Assembly: GCF_005885635.1 (NCBI RefSeq)
Contig: NZ_VATY01000002.1
Coordinates: 310,001-374,000, forward strand
DNA length: 64,000 bases
Direction of reading: 5' to 3'
From: Maribacter algarum (ex Zhang et al. 2020)
GTDB taxonomy: Bacteria; Bacteroidota; Bacteroidia; Flavobacteriales; Flavobacteriaceae
A model generated the notes under the pieces. The model did not search any database. It was not told the DNA's origin and saw only the letters and a list, made by a program, of their open reading frames with translations. The position numbers were made by a program, and so were the translations under genes. Each line of letters opens with the position of its first letter. Position 1 is the first letter of the stretch. Shown here in pieces: positions 1,562 through 7,437 of this stretch.

Positions 1562-1633
1562 TACAGTCCATCGCCAAAATTCTACAGTTCAGTCTTTCTT
1601 TTTTCATTTCAGGTGAAAATCTAATCAAATTTG
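1562..1633 (+). promoter_or_regulatory. LytTR-type direct repeat plus -7 element, promoter 1
   Basis: Two 10-mers lie exactly 21 bp apart: TACAGTCCAT (1562-1571) and TACAGTTCAG (1583-1592). The inner 9-mers match the published LytTR consensus [TA][AC][CA]GTTN[AG][TG] at 8/9 and 9/9, with a 12-bp spacer. AAATTTG follows at 1627-1633, 44 bp after the start of the right repeat, and resembles the Bacteroidetes -7 box TAnnTTTG. The same spacing recurs at 4199-4270 and 4603-4674. I infer an activator-dependent promoter for the DUF2141/TPR/kinase genes, bound by the LytTR regulator encoded at 6682. Confidence 0.7.
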
Positions 1634-1682
1634 CTACTTAATAAACCTGCCCGAATCCGGTTAGGGTTAAAAAAGAAAAATC

Positions 1683-2102
1683 ATGATTCACTTAGTTCGT
1701 ATTCTATTGCTTTTGTTGGCCACAACAGTTGTTCACGCCCAAGAAGAAACAACCACAATTGAAGTGGAAATTACACACATAGACAATGATGAAGGTCAAA
1801 TGCTCATCGGATTATATGATTCAGAGAGCAATTGGCTTAAAAAATTATATAAAGGAACCTTTGGTGTTATTGAGTACGGTAGTAGTTCAGCGATTTTTAA
1901 GGATGTTCCAAGTGGCACATATGCTATATCTGTTTTTCATGATGAAAATAACGACGGAAAACTAGATACCAATTTTTTCGGAATTCCCTCTGAAGATACT
2001 GGGAGTTCAAATGATGCTCCGGCCATGTTTGGTCCTCCAAAATGGGAAGATGCAAAATTTGAGGTAAAGGGAAGAACAGTAAAACAAGTCATTCAATTAT
2101 AA
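1683..2102 (+). CDS. DUF2141 exported protein
   Basis: 139 residues with a signal peptide of about 19 residues ending VVHAQ. The mature part fits DUF2141, a small beta-sandwich: VPSGTYAISVFHDENNDGKLDTN is the family's hallmark region (near residues 80-102), followed by the usual FGIPSED and a proline/glycine-rich end. DUF2141 proteins are exported or surface proteins of unknown role, common in Bacteroidetes and often beside membrane sensors. This gene is the first of a group with the TPR protein and the sensor kinase and sits about 50 bp downstream of a LytTR-type promoter, so it is probably part of that system's output. Confidence 0.85.
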   Translation: MIHLVRILLLLLATTVVHAQEETTTIEVEITHIDNDEGQMLIGLYDSESNWLKKLYKGTFGVIEYGSSSAIFKDVPSGTYAISVFHDENNDGKLDTNFFGIPSEDTGSSNDAPAMFGPPKWEDAKFEVKGRTVKQVIQL

Positions 2103-2174
2103 ATTAACAGATTCCTGCCTTTACTGAAATGAATTCAGCACGGGCACCGGAATGAAAATAAAAAACCATTCGTC

Positions 2175-2798
2175 ATGAAAAAAGTATTTACAACCGTATT
2201 GTTATTTGTAACAACAATCACTTTCGCCCAAGACCAATATACCAAAGGAATGCAAAAAGCATTTCAATTATGGGGTGAGGGAAAAGCAAGTGAAGCCTCG
2301 AATATGTTCGAGCGAATTTCGAATGCTGAAATGGACAATTGGCTGCCGTATTATTATGTCGCTCAGATAAACACCATTGCCTCTTTTGGAGAAAAAGACA
2401 AAGAAAAATTAACCCAGCAGTTGGAAAAAGCACAAGAGTTTATTGATTTGGCAAAAGCTATTTCTCCTGATAATCCAGAGATATTGGTTCAGCAAGCAAT
2501 GACGCATACGGCATGGATTGCCTTTGATGGTGCTACATACGGCATGACCCTTTCTGGAAAAGTAGTAGCCTTATATGCCAAAGCAGAAACCTTAGCGCCA
2601 GATAACCCTAGAGTTGTATTTTCTCAAGCCGAATGGAATATGGGTTCGGCAAAATACTTCGGACAAGACACCGCACCTTATTGCAAAGATGTTGAGCGTT
2701 CACTCGAACTTTTTGCTAACTTTAAACCGGAGTCCGATTTTCACCCGAATTGGGGAAAAGACAGGGCAGAAATGGTAGCTGAAAACTGTAACAAATAA
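2175..2798 (+). CDS. Exported TPR-like protein
   Basis: 207 residues with a cleavable signal peptide (MKKVFTTVLLFVTTITFAQ). The rest is helical and TPR-like: repeated helix pairs with WLPYYYVAQ, AISPDNPEILVQQA and TLAPDNPRVVFSQAEWN, where the P-D-N-P turns mark repeat boundaries. No enzymatic motif is visible. It is probably a periplasmic scaffold. Its stop codon overlaps the kinase start by one base (TAATG), so the two are translationally coupled and this protein may work with the sensor kinase. Confidence 0.8.
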   Translation: MKKVFTTVLLFVTTITFAQDQYTKGMQKAFQLWGEGKASEASNMFERISNAEMDNWLPYYYVAQINTIASFGEKDKEKLTQQLEKAQEFIDLAKAISPDNPEILVQQAMTHTAWIAFDGATYGMTLSGKVVALYAKAETLAPDNPRVVFSQAEWNMGSAKYFGQDTAPYCKDVERSLELFANFKPESDFHPNWGKDRAEMVAENCNK

Positions 2799-4141
2799 TG
2801 ACCACAAACTATTTTTTAAAAGAGCTGATTAGAGCGTTCCTCATAGGAACGCTAATCTTCTTGAGCTTTTTGTCGTATTACTACTTTGCCGATTATGTGA
2901 GATTTGAGAATATGTATGATGATTTCTGGAAAGAGTATTTCTCTAATCTAGTATTCTCGACGATACTATACATGGTCAATATGATTTGGTTTCGTTTTAT
3001 TCTAAAAAAATGGGATGGATTTCTATACACTTTCCAGCGTATGTCGATTGCGCTTATTGGAAACGTAGTGATAACCTGTATCGGTATTTTTGTGGCTACA
3101 TTTATTATTTTGATAGCTTTTCATGAGTATTCTTTTCAGCGAGCAATAGCATATCAATCACTAGAAAATTATCTTCAATCGGTAATCATCGCTATGGTTG
3201 TTGCTTGCATTTTCTACATTGTTTGGTATTATAAATACCGTCAAGAAAACAAGGTTAAAGAACAAAAAATAATTGCAGGTACGGCATCGGCGAAATTTGA
3301 TGCGTTAAAGAATCAATTAGATCCTCATTTTCTTTTCAATAGTTTGAATGTATTGACAAGTTTGATTGAAGAAGACCCTTATCAGGCGCAAAAGTTCACT
3401 ACTTCATTATCAAAGGTGTATCGTTATGTGCTTGAGCAAAAGAATAAAGATTTGATTTCAGTGGATGAGGAATTGAAATTTGCCAAAACTTATGTAAGGC
3501 TTTTGAAAATGCGATTTGAAGATAGCATTGTATTTGAGATTCCCGAGCAAAGTTCTAGTCCCGAAGCTAAGATTATTCCTTTGTCTCTTCAATTACTCCT
3601 TGAAAATGCTGTCAAGCATAATGTTGTTACTTCGGAGAAACCTCTACATATAAAAGTTTTAGAAAGGGACGGAATGTTAGAAGTTTCCAATAATCTACAG
3701 GAAAAACAGGTGGTGAAAAAGAGTAGCGGAGTAGGCCTAACCAATATTCAGCAACGTTATGCGATACTGACCGATAGAAGAGTACGCATTGAAAAAACAG
3801 CTTCAGATTTTAGTGTGCAACTACCCATGTTGACTAAGCAAGTTTCAAAAGTAGAAACCCAAGAAATCTATATAGAGGATAAAAGGTATGAGAAGGCCAA
3901 AGAGCAAGTAGAAAAAATAAAAGGGTTTTATGGCAATCTTACCTCTTATTTGATAGTTATTCCCATTTTAATTTTTATTAATTTTAGAACAACGAGCTTT
4001 CCTTGGGCGATATTTCCCGCCTTAGGGTGGGGCTTTGGCCTAACAGCTCATGGCCTGGAAGCTTTTGGGTATAACCCGCTGTATGGGAAAAAATGGGAGG
4101 AACGAAAGATGCGAGAGTTCATGGAGGATGAAAACTTCTGA
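2798..4141 (+). CDS. LytS-type sensor histidine kinase with C-terminal 2TM domain
   Basis: 447 residues. Four membrane segments (about 12-32, 47-67, 82-108, 128-146) lead into a His_kinase (PF06580) dimerisation/phosphoacceptor block with LDPHFLFNSLN, H177. The ATP-binding part shows an N box (LLENAVKHN, near 270) and a G box (SGVGLTNIQQRY). After about residue 360 a complete 2TM domain (PF13239-like) is fused on: IKGFYGNL, two hydrophobic segments, then WEERKMREFMED. This tail closely resembles the stand-alone protein encoded next (4317), which points to duplication. The likely partner is the LytTR regulator at 6682. The fused tail could anchor or hetero-oligomerise with the 2TM proteins; that is inference. 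Confidence 0.92.
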   Translation: MTTNYFLKELIRAFLIGTLIFLSFLSYYYFADYVRFENMYDDFWKEYFSNLVFSTILYMVNMIWFRFILKKWDGFLYTFQRMSIALIGNVVITCIGIFVATFIILIAFHEYSFQRAIAYQSLENYLQSVIIAMVVACIFYIVWYYKYRQENKVKEQKIIAGTASAKFDALKNQLDPHFLFNSLNVLTSLIEEDPYQAQKFTTSLSKVYRYVLEQKNKDLISVDEELKFAKTYVRLLKMRFEDSIVFEIPEQSSSPEAKIIPLSLQLLLENAVKHNVVTSEKPLHIKVLERDGMLEVSNNLQEKQVVKKSSGVGLTNIQQRYAILTDRRVRIEKTASDFSVQLPMLTKQVSKVETQEIYIEDKRYEKAKEQVEKIKGFYGNLTSYLIVIPILIFINFRTTSFPWAIFPALGWGFGLTAHGLEAFGYNPLYGKKWEERKMREFMEDENF

Positions 4142-4198
4142 CCTTAGCTACGCTTAGTCGTTAACAAAGCAAAATTGTAAGCAAAAGGTAGCCGAAAC

Positions 4199-4270
4199 TT
4201 CAATTCATCCCAAAGAAATTACAGTTCGGAAATTACTTATTTTAAAACCCCTAATTGTTTCTGAAATTTG
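4199..4270 (+). promoter_or_regulatory. LytTR-type direct repeat plus -7 element, promoter 2
   Basis: TTCAATTCAT (4199-4208) and TACAGTTCGG (4220-4229) are 21 bp apart; the inner 9-mers match the LytTR consensus at 8/9 and 9/9. AAATTTG at 4264-4270 begins 44 bp after the start of the right repeat, exactly as in promoters 1 and 3. A transcript would start near 4275, about 40 bp before the 2TM gene at 4317. The 175-bp gap between kinase and this gene is therefore a real promoter region. Confidence 0.72.
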
Positions 4271-4316
4271 ATTCGAATTAATCCTGAAACCAGTTCGGGA
4301 TAGAAAAACGAAAATC

Positions 4317-4601
4317 ATGAACTATTTAGAAAACAATGAAATTAGGTACAGAAGAGCAAAAGAACGCATAGAAGCCATCAAGGGCTTTTATATGAATCTA
4401 TTTGCGTATTGCATAGTAATACCCTTCCTCGCTTTTTTAAATTATAATACAACAACTTTTCCTTGGGTACTTTTTCCAATGTTAGGTTGGGGTATGGGAC
4501 TTTTAGGGCAAGGATTATCGGCCTTTGGTTTTAATCCTTTATGGAATAAAAACTGGGAGGAACGAAAAATTCAAGAGCTGATGAATGACAACAATTTCTA
4601 A
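4317..4601 (+). CDS. Stand-alone 2TM-domain membrane protein 1
   Basis: 94 residues, essentially only a 2TM domain: charged N-terminal helix (RAKERIEAIKGFY, about 14-26), first membrane segment about 27-43, second about 50-70, then the conserved FGFNPLWNKNWEERKIQELM tail. It is the closest sibling in this cluster of the domain fused to the kinase: both share FPW at the start of the second segment and end in an acidic (E/D)NF or DNNF. It has its own LytTR-type promoter. Both termini are predicted cytoplasmic. The molecular function of 2TM proteins is unknown. Confidence 0.88.
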   Translation: MNYLENNEIRYRRAKERIEAIKGFYMNLFAYCIVIPFLAFLNYNTTTFPWVLFPMLGWGMGLLGQGLSAFGFNPLWNKNWEERKIQELMNDNNF

Positions 4602-4602
4602 T

Positions 4603-4674
4603 CACAATTCATCAGTAAAAAACAACAATTCAGAAAGTAACATTTAGTAAAACGAGTCTATTTATAGAAATTTG
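4603..4674 (+). promoter_or_regulatory. LytTR-type direct repeat plus -7 element, promoter 3
   Basis: CACAATTCAT (4603-4612) and AACAATTCAG (4624-4633) are 21 bp apart; each inner 9-mer matches the LytTR consensus at 8/9. AAATTTG at 4668-4674 again begins 44 bp after the start of the right repeat. Because transcription should start near 4680, start codons at or before 4672 for the next gene are ruled out and the ATG at 4714 gives a leader of about 35 bases, close to those of promoters 1 and 2. Confidence 0.72.
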
Positions 4675-4713
4675 ATACGAGCAATCATGACAAACCTTAA
4701 AAAGAAAGATCAG

Positions 4714-5037
4714 ATGGAATATTTAGAGATAAAAGAATCAAGAAACATCAACGACGCAAAGTATCTAAGAGCTAAAGAGCGTATTGCAGAGATGAAGAAA
4801 TTTTATAGCAGTCTACTGTCATATGCAGTACTTATAGCATTCCTAGCTGCTTTAAACTATTATACCAACGGATGGAATTACATGTGGTTCTTGTGGGTTG
4901 CATTTGGTTGGGGAATCGGATTGGCTTTTAAAGCTGTGAAAGTTTTTGGAATGAACCCCTTTTTCGGAAGAGGTTGGGAAGAGCGTAAGATTAAAGAATT
5001 TATGGAGGAAGATGAACAACAAAACAGATGGAACTAA
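4714..5037 (+). CDS. Stand-alone 2TM-domain membrane protein 2
   Basis: 107 residues from the ATG at 4714. I prefer this start over the in-frame ATGs at 4672 and 4687 because the -7 element ends at 4674 and because MEYLE aligns with MNYLE of the previous 2TM protein. The domain shows RAKERIAEMKKFY, two hydrophobic segments (second one with FLWVAFGWGIGLAF), and FGMNPFFGRGWEERKIKEFM. The end is glutamate/glutamine-rich. Its TAA overlaps the next ATG by one base, so the next gene is coupled to it. Confidence 0.85.
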   Translation: MEYLEIKESRNINDAKYLRAKERIAEMKKFYSSLLSYAVLIAFLAALNYYTNGWNYMWFLWVAFGWGIGLAFKAVKVFGMNPFFGRGWEERKIKEFMEEDEQQNRWN

Positions 5038-5366
5038 TGGACTATAACAATTTTGAAAAGAAGGAACGTGCTAAAAAGCGAGTGGAAGAATTGAAAGGCT
5101 TTTATATACACTTTATGGTATATGTTCTGGTAAACATAATGATTAGCACGGTTATCATCGTAAGTCATATGCACAATGGAGATAGCTTTCTAGAATCCAT
5201 TTGGGATTTTGGAACCATATCAACCTGGATTTTCTGGGGAATAGGGATATTTTTTCATGGGATGAAAGTGTTTTCGTTTAATCCCTTTTTAGGAAGAGAC
5301 TGGGAAGAACGACAGCTTAAGAAATATATGGAGGAAGATAAAAAGCAAGCAGAAAAGTATAAATAA
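5037..5366 (+). CDS. Stand-alone 2TM-domain membrane protein 3
   Basis: 109 residues from the ATG at 5037, which shares its A with the upstream stop codon (TAATG). An in-frame ATG at 5028 is possible but less likely. Domain landmarks: RAKKRVEELKGFYIHF, first membrane segment about 30-47, a longer extracytoplasmic loop with HMHNGDSF, second segment WIFWGIGIFFHGMKVF, and NPFLGRDWEERQLKKYMEED. The longer loop and the K-rich end (KKQAEKYK) place it with the protein encoded at 6124, which ends in the same EKYK. Confidence 0.85.
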   Translation: MDYNNFEKKERAKKRVEELKGFYIHFMVYVLVNIMISTVIIVSHMHNGDSFLESIWDFGTISTWIFWGIGIFFHGMKVFSFNPFLGRDWEERQLKKYMEEDKKQAEKYK

Positions 5367-5385: not shown

Positions 5386-5715
5386 ATGGAATCAAAAAAC
5401 ACACCTCATGTATCATCATATGAGAGAGCTCAAAAGAAGGTTAAAGATATCAAAGGGTTTTACGGTCACCTCGCAGTATATGTTATCGTAATTCTGGTGG
5501 TACTATCAACAAGAGGTAGATTTATGTCGATACATAATACGATATTTCAAGATTCTGAGTATTTAAATTGGATTGATTGGAATGTTTTCGGAACTCCCAT
5601 CATTTGGGGAATATTCCTCATCATGCACGGCATTCGAGTATTTGGAAAGAACCCTTTTCTGGGAAGAAAATGGGAAGACCGTCAGATTCAAAAATACATG
5701 GAGAAAAAAACTTGA
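5386..5715 (+). CDS. Stand-alone 2TM-domain membrane protein 4
   Basis: 109 residues. Landmarks: SYERAQKKVKDIKGFYGHL, first membrane segment about 25-42, a loop containing LNWIDWNVFGTP, second segment PIIWGIFLIMHGIRVF, then NPFLGRKWEDRQIQKYMEKK. The LNWIDWNVFGTP loop is shared almost exactly with the next protein (5752), so the two are a recent duplicate pair. The spacer from the previous gene is only 19 bp, which fits one transcript. Confidence 0.87.
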   Translation: MESKNTPHVSSYERAQKKVKDIKGFYGHLAVYVIVILVVLSTRGRFMSIHNTIFQDSEYLNWIDWNVFGTPIIWGIFLIMHGIRVFGKNPFLGRKWEDRQIQKYMEKKT

Positions 5716-5751: not shown

Positions 5752-6090
5752 ATGCCATCAAAAAACAAAAAACCATCAACATCATATGAAAGAGCTCGTA
5801 AAAGAGTAGATGACATCAAAGGCTTTTACGGGCACCTAACAGCGTATATCATTGTAAATGCGGTATTGTTATTAGCCCGTGGAAAATTTCACTTTATGCT
5901 TTTAAGTGAGGGAGCTTTAGGAGATCCCGAATTTCTAAATTGGATTGATTGGAATGTCTTTGGGACACCGATTGTATGGGGCATTGGCCTCGGTATTCAC
6001 GCATTAAGTGTATTTGTTAGAAATCCGTTTTTAGGAAGGTCTTGGGAGGAGCGTCAGATAGAAAAGTATATGAAGAAAGGTGAAAAATAG
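5752..6090 (+). CDS. Stand-alone 2TM-domain membrane protein 5
   Basis: 112 residues. It has the same plan as its neighbour at 5386: SYERARKRVDDIKGFYGHL, membrane segment, LNWIDWNVFGTP loop, second segment WGIGLGIHALSVF, and NPFLGRSWEERQIEKYMKK. The nucleotide sequence before the start (CCATCATC-ATG) also resembles that before the 5386 gene, which supports a tandem duplication that included the ribosome-loading region. Confidence 0.87.
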   Translation: MPSKNKKPSTSYERARKRVDDIKGFYGHLTAYIIVNAVLLLARGKFHFMLLSEGALGDPEFLNWIDWNVFGTPIVWGIGLGIHALSVFVRNPFLGRSWEERQIEKYMKKGEK

Positions 6091-6123: not shown

Positions 6124-6453
6124 ATGGATACAAGAAAAATTGACAAAAGCGCTAAAGCCAAAAAGAAAGTTGAAGCCCTAAAGGGTTTCTACATACATCT
6201 TACGCTGTATTTCTTGATAAATACGATGCTCTTGGTGGTCAAAATAATTGGCACCCCTTATTATGGTGAAAATTTTATGGGACCAATATGGCACTTTAGT
6301 ACCTTCGCTACATGGCTTATCTGGGGCTTAGGTTTGGCATTTCACGCCAGTAAAGTGTTTGGTTGGAATCCTTTTTTCAATAAAGAATGGGAGAAGCGTC
6401 AAATAAATAAGTACATGGAAAAAAACAAAAAAGAATCGGAAAAATACAAGTAA
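6124..6453 (+). CDS. Stand-alone 2TM-domain membrane protein 6
   Basis: 109 residues from the ATG at 6124 (a TTG at 6118 is in frame but unlikely). Landmarks: KAKKKVEALKGFYIHL, first membrane segment about 26-42, loop with PYYGENFMGPIWHF, second segment TWLIWGLGLAFHASKVF, then NPFFNKEWEKRQINKYMEK. It most resembles protein 3 of the cluster (5037), sharing the loop length and the EKYK end. It is the last intact 2TM gene; a decayed one follows before the response regulator. Confidence 0.87.
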   Translation: MDTRKIDKSAKAKKKVEALKGFYIHLTLYFLINTMLLVVKIIGTPYYGENFMGPIWHFSTFATWLIWGLGLAFHASKVFGWNPFFNKEWEKRQINKYMEKNKKESEKYK

Positions 6454-6474: not shown

Positions 6475-6680
6475 GAACTGAAAAGGGTAAAGCAAAGAGT
6501 TGAACGCATCTCTATAATCATGTAGTTATATTTGTTCTTATCAGTGTCGCTTTATTGCTTTTGAAAGACGAAATAACAATCGCTATTTTTGGAGAAGAAA
6601 GATTAGCAATTCCTAAATTCACAAGTACCTGGAACACGACAAATCTGAAACCTATAATTAATAGTATCACCAAAAGAACC
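6475..6680 (+). pseudogene. Decayed 2TM-domain gene
   Basis: The stretch between the last 2TM gene and the response regulator carries 2TM remains. In one frame, 6475-6510 reads ELKRVKQRVERI, matching the charged helix that precedes IKGFY in the siblings. In another frame, 6513 onward reads YNHVVIFVLISVALLLLKD, a first membrane segment, then continues open for about 40 residues without a recognisable second segment or the WEER tail. The frame change falls where IKGFY should be, as if about 7 bases were lost. There is no start codon of the usual kind. I read it as a broken extra paralogue; it might still supply the regulator's leader. Confidence 0.55.
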
Positions 6681-6681
6681 T

Positions 6682-7437
6682 ATGAACGTAATTATAATAG
6701 AAGACGAAAAACCTGCAGCCAGAAGACTTTCAAGGCTTTTGGAAGAATTGGAAGTAAAAGTATCGGTAATGCTACATTCCGTTGAGGAAGCTATCAACTG
6801 GTTTCAAAATAATGAGCATCCTGATTTGATTTTCTTGGACATTCAGCTTTCCGACGGACTCTCATTCGAGATTTTTGAAACGATAGAAGTCCGAAGTGCG
6901 ATTATATTTACGACAGCTTTCGATGAGTATGCATTACAAGCTTTTAAACTGAATAGTATCGATTATTTATTAAAACCGATTGACGATGAGGATCTAGAGG
7001 TGGCGGTAAAAAAATATAAGTCACTGAAACCTGAACCTCAAAAACTGGCATTGGATTTTGAGGATATAAAAAAGTTATTGGTGAATCCACTAGAGCGCGA
7101 ATACAAAAAACGATTTACAGTCAAAGTAGGGCAACACCTAAAAATTATAAATGCGGATGAGGTAGAATGTTTTTACAGTGAAAATAAAGGAACCTATGCC
7201 GCAACTTCCGATGGGAGAAATTATTTATTAGATACCACTTTAGAAAATTTGGAAGGTGAGTTGGAGCCTAAAATTTTCTTTAGAGTCAGTCGTAAATTTT
7301 ACGTTAACATCAATCATATAAAAGACATCATTTCGTATACGAATTCACGTCTTCAAATCAAAGTAAATCACTTTTCTGAGCAAGAAATCATAGTGAGTAG
7401 GGAAAGAGTACGAGATTTCAAGTTATGGTTAGAATAG
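6682..7437 (+). CDS. LytTR-family response regulator
   Basis: 251 residues. The receiver domain (1-118) has the acidic pair E7/D8, phosphoacceptor D53 in IFLDIQLSDG, T77/T78 and K98 in LLKPID. A linker leads to a LytTR DNA-binding domain (about 140-250) with FTVKVGQHLKII, a loop EVECFYSENKGTYA, FFRVSRKFYVNINHI and the closing VSRERVRDFKLWL. It is the natural partner of the LytS-type kinase at 2798, from which it is separated by the 2TM cluster. The LytTR-like direct repeats at 1562, 4199 and 4603 are its probable targets, which would make the island autoregulated. Confidence 0.93.
   Translation: MNVIIIEDEKPAARRLSRLLEELEVKVSVMLHSVEEAINWFQNNEHPDLIFLDIQLSDGLSFEIFETIEVRSAIIFTTAFDEYALQAFKLNSIDYLLKPIDDEDLEVAVKKYKSLKPEPQKLALDFEDIKKLLVNPLEREYKKRFTVKVGQHLKIINADEVECFYSENKGTYAATSDGRNYLLDTTLENLEGELEPKIFFRVSRKFYVNINHIKDIISYTNSRLQIKVNHFSEQEIIVSRERVRDFKLWLE

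Follow-up and report, generated by a model that had tools for sequence, protein, structure and literature searches.

What reads the three promoters that surround a cluster of 2TM and histidine kinase genes in Maribacter algarum (ex Zhang et al. 2020)? The question is raised by a stretch of 64,000 nucleotides of contig NZ_VATY01000002.1 (positions 310,001 to 374,000, assembly GCF_005885635.1), hereafter the window, which belongs to a genome of 5.1 Mb. Each promoter bears a pair of LytTR-type repeats, and we consider it likely that all three depend on an activator, that their reader is the response regulator encoded at 6682, which combines a receiver (REC) with a LytTR domain, and that they form part of an autoactivated envelope regulon. 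This reading stands on geometry, conservation, gene content and co-occurrence, from which binding and activation are predicted. The regulatory element itself is real, conserved and of a known general kind, while its setting is new, its core promoter distinctive and its regulon wider than first seen.

The 9-mer consensus of LytTR binding sites is [TA][AC][CA]GTTN[AG][TG]. On the forward strand, the left and right half-sites are located at 1563..1571 (ACAGTCCAT) and 1584..1592 (ACAGTTCAG) in promoter 1, at 4200..4208 (TCAATTCAT) and 4221..4229 (ACAGTTCGG) in promoter 2, and at 4604..4612 (ACAATTCAT) and 4625..4633 (ACAATTCAG) in promoter 3, and in this order they agree with the consensus at 8, 9, 8, 9, 8 and 8 of the nine positions. 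The original prediction had set the sites at 1562, 4199 and 4603. Sites do exist there and their 21-bp spacing is exact at all three, but the best register lies one base to the right, and the claimed agreement of 8 or 9 positions is found in this register and not in the earlier one (4-6 of 9). Similarly, AAATTTG begins 44 bp after the right repeat in the earlier register of all three promoters, but it is merely one form of the core [GC]AnnTTTG described below; in the shifted register, TTTG begins 46 bp past the start of the right 9-mer (+46) at all three. The arrangement is that of a LytTR operator: direct repeats of 9 bp with a gap of about 12 bp, half-sites (consensus ACARTTCRK) separated by two helical turns and a downstream end that leaves 9-10 bp before a T-rich -33 region, in which promoter 1 carries a conserved TTT (1602..1604, +) at the expected position of a putative -33 element. 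The -7 boxes follow on the same strand at 1626..1633 (CAAATTTG), 4263..4270 (GAAATTTG) and 4667..4674 (GAAATTTG, as in promoter 2). Three identical spacings had been judged hard to explain by chance, and this was borne out in the 64 kb: with a 9-mer class that was drawn up post hoc from the six half-sites and gives 20 matches per strand, pairs 21 bp apart occur at only three places on the forward strand and nowhere on the reverse strand.

Conservation in other genomes bears on whether the pattern could be accidental, or a duplicated promoter without regulatory meaning; the 2TM genes are tandem duplicates, so that promoters 2 and 3 are possibly copies of each other. A training set of 32 oriented loci (the corresponding part of the window, 30 fetched loci, L052-L081, and L032; 336,373 bases) was searched for half-sites with at most one mismatch, and contained 47 sense pairs at spacing 21 against no more than two at each other spacing up to 60. 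The antisense strand held a single pair at spacing 21, and 20 first-order Markov resamplings gave 0-2. For the held-out set, 80 loci were reduced to 76 by removing four duplicates of training loci, and up to three mismatches per pair were allowed; these loci were picked through the kinase and are therefore a non-random sample from the same family as the training loci. Spacing 21 yielded 145 sense and 17 antisense pairs, compared with 6-19 sense pairs at each of the other spacings from 12 to 32, and 119 of the 145 had TTTG exactly at +46. Such a canonical site occurred one or more times in 70 of the 76 loci and was absent from the remaining six (L275, L294, L297, L305, L310 and L327). The genes behind the 119 canonical sites encode 2TM proteins (37), TPR proteins (29), TonB receptors (17), kinases (15) and DUF2141 proteins (13), with eight unlabelled. 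The geometry is thus constant in many genera and before unrelated genes, although the linkers vary, whereas the antisense strand and other spacings show background only. Chance was rejected on these counts, and we give practically no credence to an accidental or meaningless duplicated pattern. Two genomes of another family depart slightly from the rule: at L076:5728 and L077:5861 the TTTG of the 2TM promoter lies at +47, and the half-sites tend to ACCGTTCRG.

Among 48 ungapped training sites, A22, C2, C23, T27, G30, T41 and A65 are each present in 48 of 48, with the reservation that the invariance of C2 and C23, as well as the TTTG, was fixed by the way the set was selected, and the -7 box takes the form S-A-W-W-TTTG. 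The 119 held-out sites keep C2, C23, T27 and A65 without exception and T41, which falls in the TTT of the putative -33 element, in 116. The flavobacterial sigma-A consensus at -7 is TAnnTTTG (PMC9723704). At the first position of that box (64), G or C occurs in 108 of the 119 held-out sites, T in five and A in six, and G or C likewise in 44 of the 48 training sites, against a background of 957 in 2283 ahead of AnnTTTG words in the same held-out loci; in this comparison with the sigma-A box TTTG was part of the site definition. The core is better written [GC]AnnTTTG than TAnnTTTG, as the A and TTTG are kept and the first base is systematically off consensus. Since sigma-A prefers T at this base, the promoters would be weak without an activator.

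The position of the repeats also bears on the sign of the control. Certain LytTR proteins, such as CoxC, are repressors (PMC11347149), so that the regulator could instead repress these promoters in a negative loop. In known LytTR systems (PMC6193735, PMC4227749, PMC11347149), repeats upstream of the -35 box go with activation and repeats overlapping it with repression. The CoxC operator overlaps the -35 box (PMC11347149), whereas the repeats described here stop 9-10 bp short of the -33 region, and an off-consensus core together with this repeat position is the layout of LytTR activators (PMC6193735). Repression therefore appears quite improbable, and activation is retained as the preferred reading.

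Concerning the extent of the regulon, a sequence-only model of the site (R1), built from the 48 training sites and giving rough E-values, was applied first to the 80 loci (the four training duplicates included), where it produced 143 matches at E <= 0.01, of which 141 are on the operon strand; as R1 derives from operon sites, its operon matches in genomes related to the training ones are in part built in. On the whole genome of M. algarum it found ten matches at E < 1e-3, three of them those of the window, followed by a gap to E = 0.2. The shared operator-promoter and the autoregulation proposed earlier agree with the finding that, in the majority of the Flavobacteriaceae loci inspected, the operator precedes the operon of the regulator itself, but the idea of an island does not stand, because seven further sites are found elsewhere in the genome; a purely local system was rejected for the same reason. 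These distal sites lie before a TonB receptor gene and, divergently, a second DUF2141 gene, DUF2141b (L112), at tandem genes for 37-aa microproteins (L113), before a 220-aa membrane-type protein without a Pfam match, which we labelled DUF2306-like (L114), before a head-GIN (DUF2807) gene directly behind a PspC-LiaI-LiaF-TM-Toastrack gene (L115), before another group of short ORFs (L116), and before a protein of 555 aa that combines a peptidase S41 match with TPR (L117). TTTG is at +46 in five of the seven. R1 matches in relatives precede the same gene types (head-GIN, TonB receptor, DUF2141, microproteins, DUF2306-like) and also a beta-lactamase-like protein; some of the weaker ones, with 4-6 mismatches, resemble noise (G039:C1, G024:C25, G037:C1:1625061). 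An outer-membrane receptor and a GIN protein beside PspC/Toastrack point to the envelope.

The microproteins deserve separate mention. They are cationic, 37 aa long and encoded in tandem (L113:7280-7975, which is G000:C14:687280-687974, and similar loci), with the pattern MKASxxRTATESKTGQYF...RNFNR. Across 21 full copies from seven genomes of the genus, pS (synonymous) is 0.47 and pN (nonsynonymous) 0.08, a ratio of 0.17, and this predominance of synonymous differences marks them as real genes under purifying selection; no Pfam or NCBIfam family matched either of the two sequences tried. A site with TTTG at +46 is established between the first and second copies in all seven loci of the genus, and control by the operator is clear there. 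Relatives of the microproteins occur in 19 of 149 family genomes, all 19 of which also have an orthologue of the regulator. No Rfam RNA reached its gathering score in the four microprotein and receptor loci searched. A second short-ORF array (38, 27-28 and 34 codons) was observed at L116:4993-5510 and in L211, in two genomes of the genus; its site has the core CAACAATTTTAC, and its middle ORFs end in WNNRRRYR-like motifs.

Which protein reads the sites was approached through co-occurrence in the 149 family genomes, which represent one genome per genus except for one pair and are at least 95% complete. With cut-offs of E <= 1e-6 for the site and E <= 1e-60 for the regulator orthologue, and the 2x2 count completed by subtraction over the genome set, both are found in 114 genomes, the orthologue only in 11, the site only in one (G019) and neither in 23. 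Sites are therefore present in 114 of 125 genomes with the orthologue and in 1 of 24 without it (Fisher p = 1e-17), an association that is partly by construction, as operon sites go with the operon. The regulator is strongly conserved: its orthologues have 86-93% identity in the best matches and 59-83% in most other family genomes, among the matches listed. Since operon sites vanish along with the operon, the distal head-GIN promoter was checked separately in genomes with a head-GIN match better than 1e-30, namely nine of ten with the regulator and nine of 20 without it. A canonical site within 333 bp upstream was found in six of the nine with the regulator and in one of the nine without it (p = 0.050). 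G165, which lacks the regulator, retains a decayed head-GIN site with four mismatches and TTTG still at +46, and G060, which has it, shows an R1 match about 550 bp upstream of head-GIN, beyond the stretch counted.

Several observations weigh against the preferred reading. The genome encodes 24 LytTR domains, which makes the regulator at 6682 a probable rather than a certain reader, and among the LytTR loci parsed, a paralogue with 43% identity (C1:1048125) has a FFRxxRKF stretch similar to that of the regulator. Eleven of the 125 orthologue-bearing genomes have no site at E <= 1e-6. Conversely, G019 has no close orthologue (best identity 30%) and still retains sites with TTTG at +46 before head-GIN (L173:8591) and DUF2141 (L174:10529), while G008, also without an orthologue, has one R1 match (2.4e-9) without TTTG at +46. 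As for the distal sites, those of L115 and L116 end in TTTTAC instead of TTTG, the L114 site has a poor left half-site and three mismatches in all, and the L117 site fits R1 only in part. Finally, an R1 match is present in 4 of the 19 microprotein loci (one locus per genome), a weak link outside the genus that makes operator control of the microproteins doubtful beyond it.

The number of LytTR domains and the sites retained in G019 would also suit another LytTR regulator, or several in parallel, acting on the same promoters, for example the 43% paralogue or RR2, which together with its TPR-kinase follows the site-driven DUF2141b gene in this genome. The latter pair was observed at L112:3407-6795 as a second LytTR two-component system, comprising a 660-aa TPR-rich kinase and RR2, behind a DUF2141 gene with the same operator. 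The divergent TonB-receptor/DUF2141b site pair, however, recurs in L179, L180, L181, L182 and L189, stretches in which RR2 has no strong match (in L179, only one weak match at 1e-8), and RR2 was rejected as the main reader on this ground. Furthermore, four genomes whose best homologue of the regulator reaches 40-46% (G020, G035, G048 and G058) have no R1 match at E <= 0.01 among the matches listed; this argument is qualified by G047 (best homologue 45%), in which an R1 match precedes its own DUF2141-HK (histidine kinase)-LytTR operon. As the sites track the window's regulator across the 149 genomes, a different or additional reader seems unlikely, and the regulator at 6682 remains the preferred candidate. 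Concerning other families, an operon of the order DUF2141-(DUF2306-like)-kinase without 2TM-LytTR carries the site in L175 (TTTG at +46), and a DUF2141-HK-LytTR operon whose kinase lacks 2TM has a weaker one with four mismatches (L176). Sites before such 2TM-less kinase operons suggest that the operator possibly predates the fusion of 2TM to the kinase.

The genes of the window operon are all encoded on the forward strand. Promoter 1 is followed by a DUF2141 protein of 139 aa (1683..2102; PF09912, 1.2e-32), a TPR-like protein of 207 aa (2175..2798) without a Pfam family, for which the sole NCBIfam match, LcrH_SycD, is below its cut-off (26.9 against 104.8 bits), and a histidine kinase of 447 aa (2798..4141) with PF06580 at residues 165-243 and PF13239, the 2TM domain, at 365-443. 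Promoter 2 precedes the first 2TM protein (94 aa, 4317..4601) and promoter 3 the other five (4687..5037, 5028..5366, 5386..5715, 5752..6090 and 6124..6453), all of PF13239, and the cluster ends with the regulator (6682..7437, 251 aa; PF00072 and PF04397). Positions 6480-6673, which separate the regulator gene from the sixth 2TM gene, resemble, by eye only, a decayed 2TM copy with stops or frameshifts. The operon is conserved: the fetched loci that span the cluster repeat its gene order, the number of 2TM genes ranging from one to six and DUF2141 being present in some. The kinase, its 2TM part included, has matches at E <= 4e-100 in 31 of the 59 genomes searched, the window's genome counted. 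It has a multi-helix N-terminal membrane part, in which Pfam identified no sensor domain, and the C-terminal 2TM domain; its AlphaFold model (mean predicted local distance difference test score, pLDDT, 77; predicted template modelling score, pTM, 0.42) places the domains too uncertainly to judge 2TM packing. For the LytTR DNA-binding domain, no close solved structure was found, the best match being 3d6w (E = 0.006).

Seven of the eight 2TM domains of the genome are in the window cluster. Because the same domain is fused to the kinase and nearly all copies sit in the operon, the most likely role of the 2TM proteins is to partner the kinase or to tune it. In the mechanism that we propose, the kinase would phosphorylate the REC-LytTR regulator, which would then occupy the two half-sites from a single face of the DNA and offset the weak core through a contact with RNA polymerase. 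The operon would thereby boost its own sensor kinase, 2TM proteins and regulator in positive feedback, while the regulator would also turn on the distant envelope genes (TonB receptor, DUF2141, head-GIN lipoprotein and microproteins), and the free 2TM proteins, which these promoters would supply as well, would probably dock on the kinase and tune it. The recurrence of the switch in nearly every family genome with the sensor cluster suggests that it is probably the hallmark of a group of cell-envelope genes that activates itself. A more far-reaching version is offered tentatively, as a possibility that we stop short of expecting: a family-wide, self-amplifying regulon of envelope homeostasis, in which a kinase anchored at both ends would sense the state of the membrane with paralogous 2TM proteins, and its LytTR partner would drive crippled [GC]AnnTTTG promoters of outer-membrane uptake, Psp/Lia-like proteins and cationic microproteins of about 37 residues.

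Not many regulatory codes in DNA are known from Bacteroidota, whose promoters are unlike those of Escherichia coli. The switch presented here offers a strict geometry, a likely reader, a distinctive core variant and target genes across many genera, and this combination makes it directly testable. Common families that still lack a name (2TM, DUF2141, head-GIN) would gain functions through their link to a single response, and the switch makes the cooperation of a LytTR activator with a Bacteroidota-type sigma factor experimentally concrete. No description of this operator or regulon was found in the literature searched, subscription journals and preprints lying outside the search. In Flavobacterium johnsoniae coevolved with Burkholderia, kinase or LytTR mutations arose in five of five lines (PMC10197871); the neighbouring locus tags of that pair hint that it is perhaps not the orthologue of the pair in the window. 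A LytTR protein is also named in PMC10057207, with no connection to the window locus.

Among characterized systems, the pairing of a PF06580 histidine kinase with a REC-LytTR partner in one operon places the window pair with the LytS/LytTR-type two-component systems such as BtsSR and YpdAB, and NCBIfam BtsR matches the regulator at 7.6e-31, below the family's own cut-off. Unlike BtsSR and YpdAB, the system described here has a kinase core followed by a fused 2TM domain, and its operon includes 2TM genes in tandem as well as genes for TPR-like and DUF2141 proteins. The half-site of AgrA is near-identical to the ACAGTT.AG of the window sites. AgrA of Staphylococcus aureus is also a LytTR response regulator that activates suboptimal promoters with upstream direct repeats, but its DNA-contact stretch is FFRCHNS (PMC4227749), compared with FFRVSRK in the window regulator, and no peptide signal gene is present among the labelled genes of the window operon. 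A likeness to the PspC/Toastrack (Lia/Psp) operons of envelope stress (PMC11237479) comes from the distal site between the PspC-LiaI-LiaF-TM-Toastrack and head-GIN (DUF2807) genes, with the difference that this site seems to drive the GIN gene alone. The same layout is found in the experimentally studied operators of the LytTR regulatory systems (LRS; HdrRM, BrsRM and others), with 9-bp direct repeats, a 12-bp gap and a location mostly 10 bp before the -35 box (PMC6193735). Apart from repeat size, gap and position, the likeness extends to positive autoregulation together with a membrane protein of the same operon, while LRS couple their LytTR regulator to a single membrane inhibitor and are distinct from two-component systems, and the LRS-like operons of Bacteroides have 11-bp repeats and membrane-bound regulators (PMC6193735). 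The window operon falls outside the LRS definition, as its regulator has PF00072 and a histidine kinase is encoded beside it; unlike LRS, it joins a receiver domain and a kinase to several 2TM proteins, a Bacteroidota-type core and a distal regulon.

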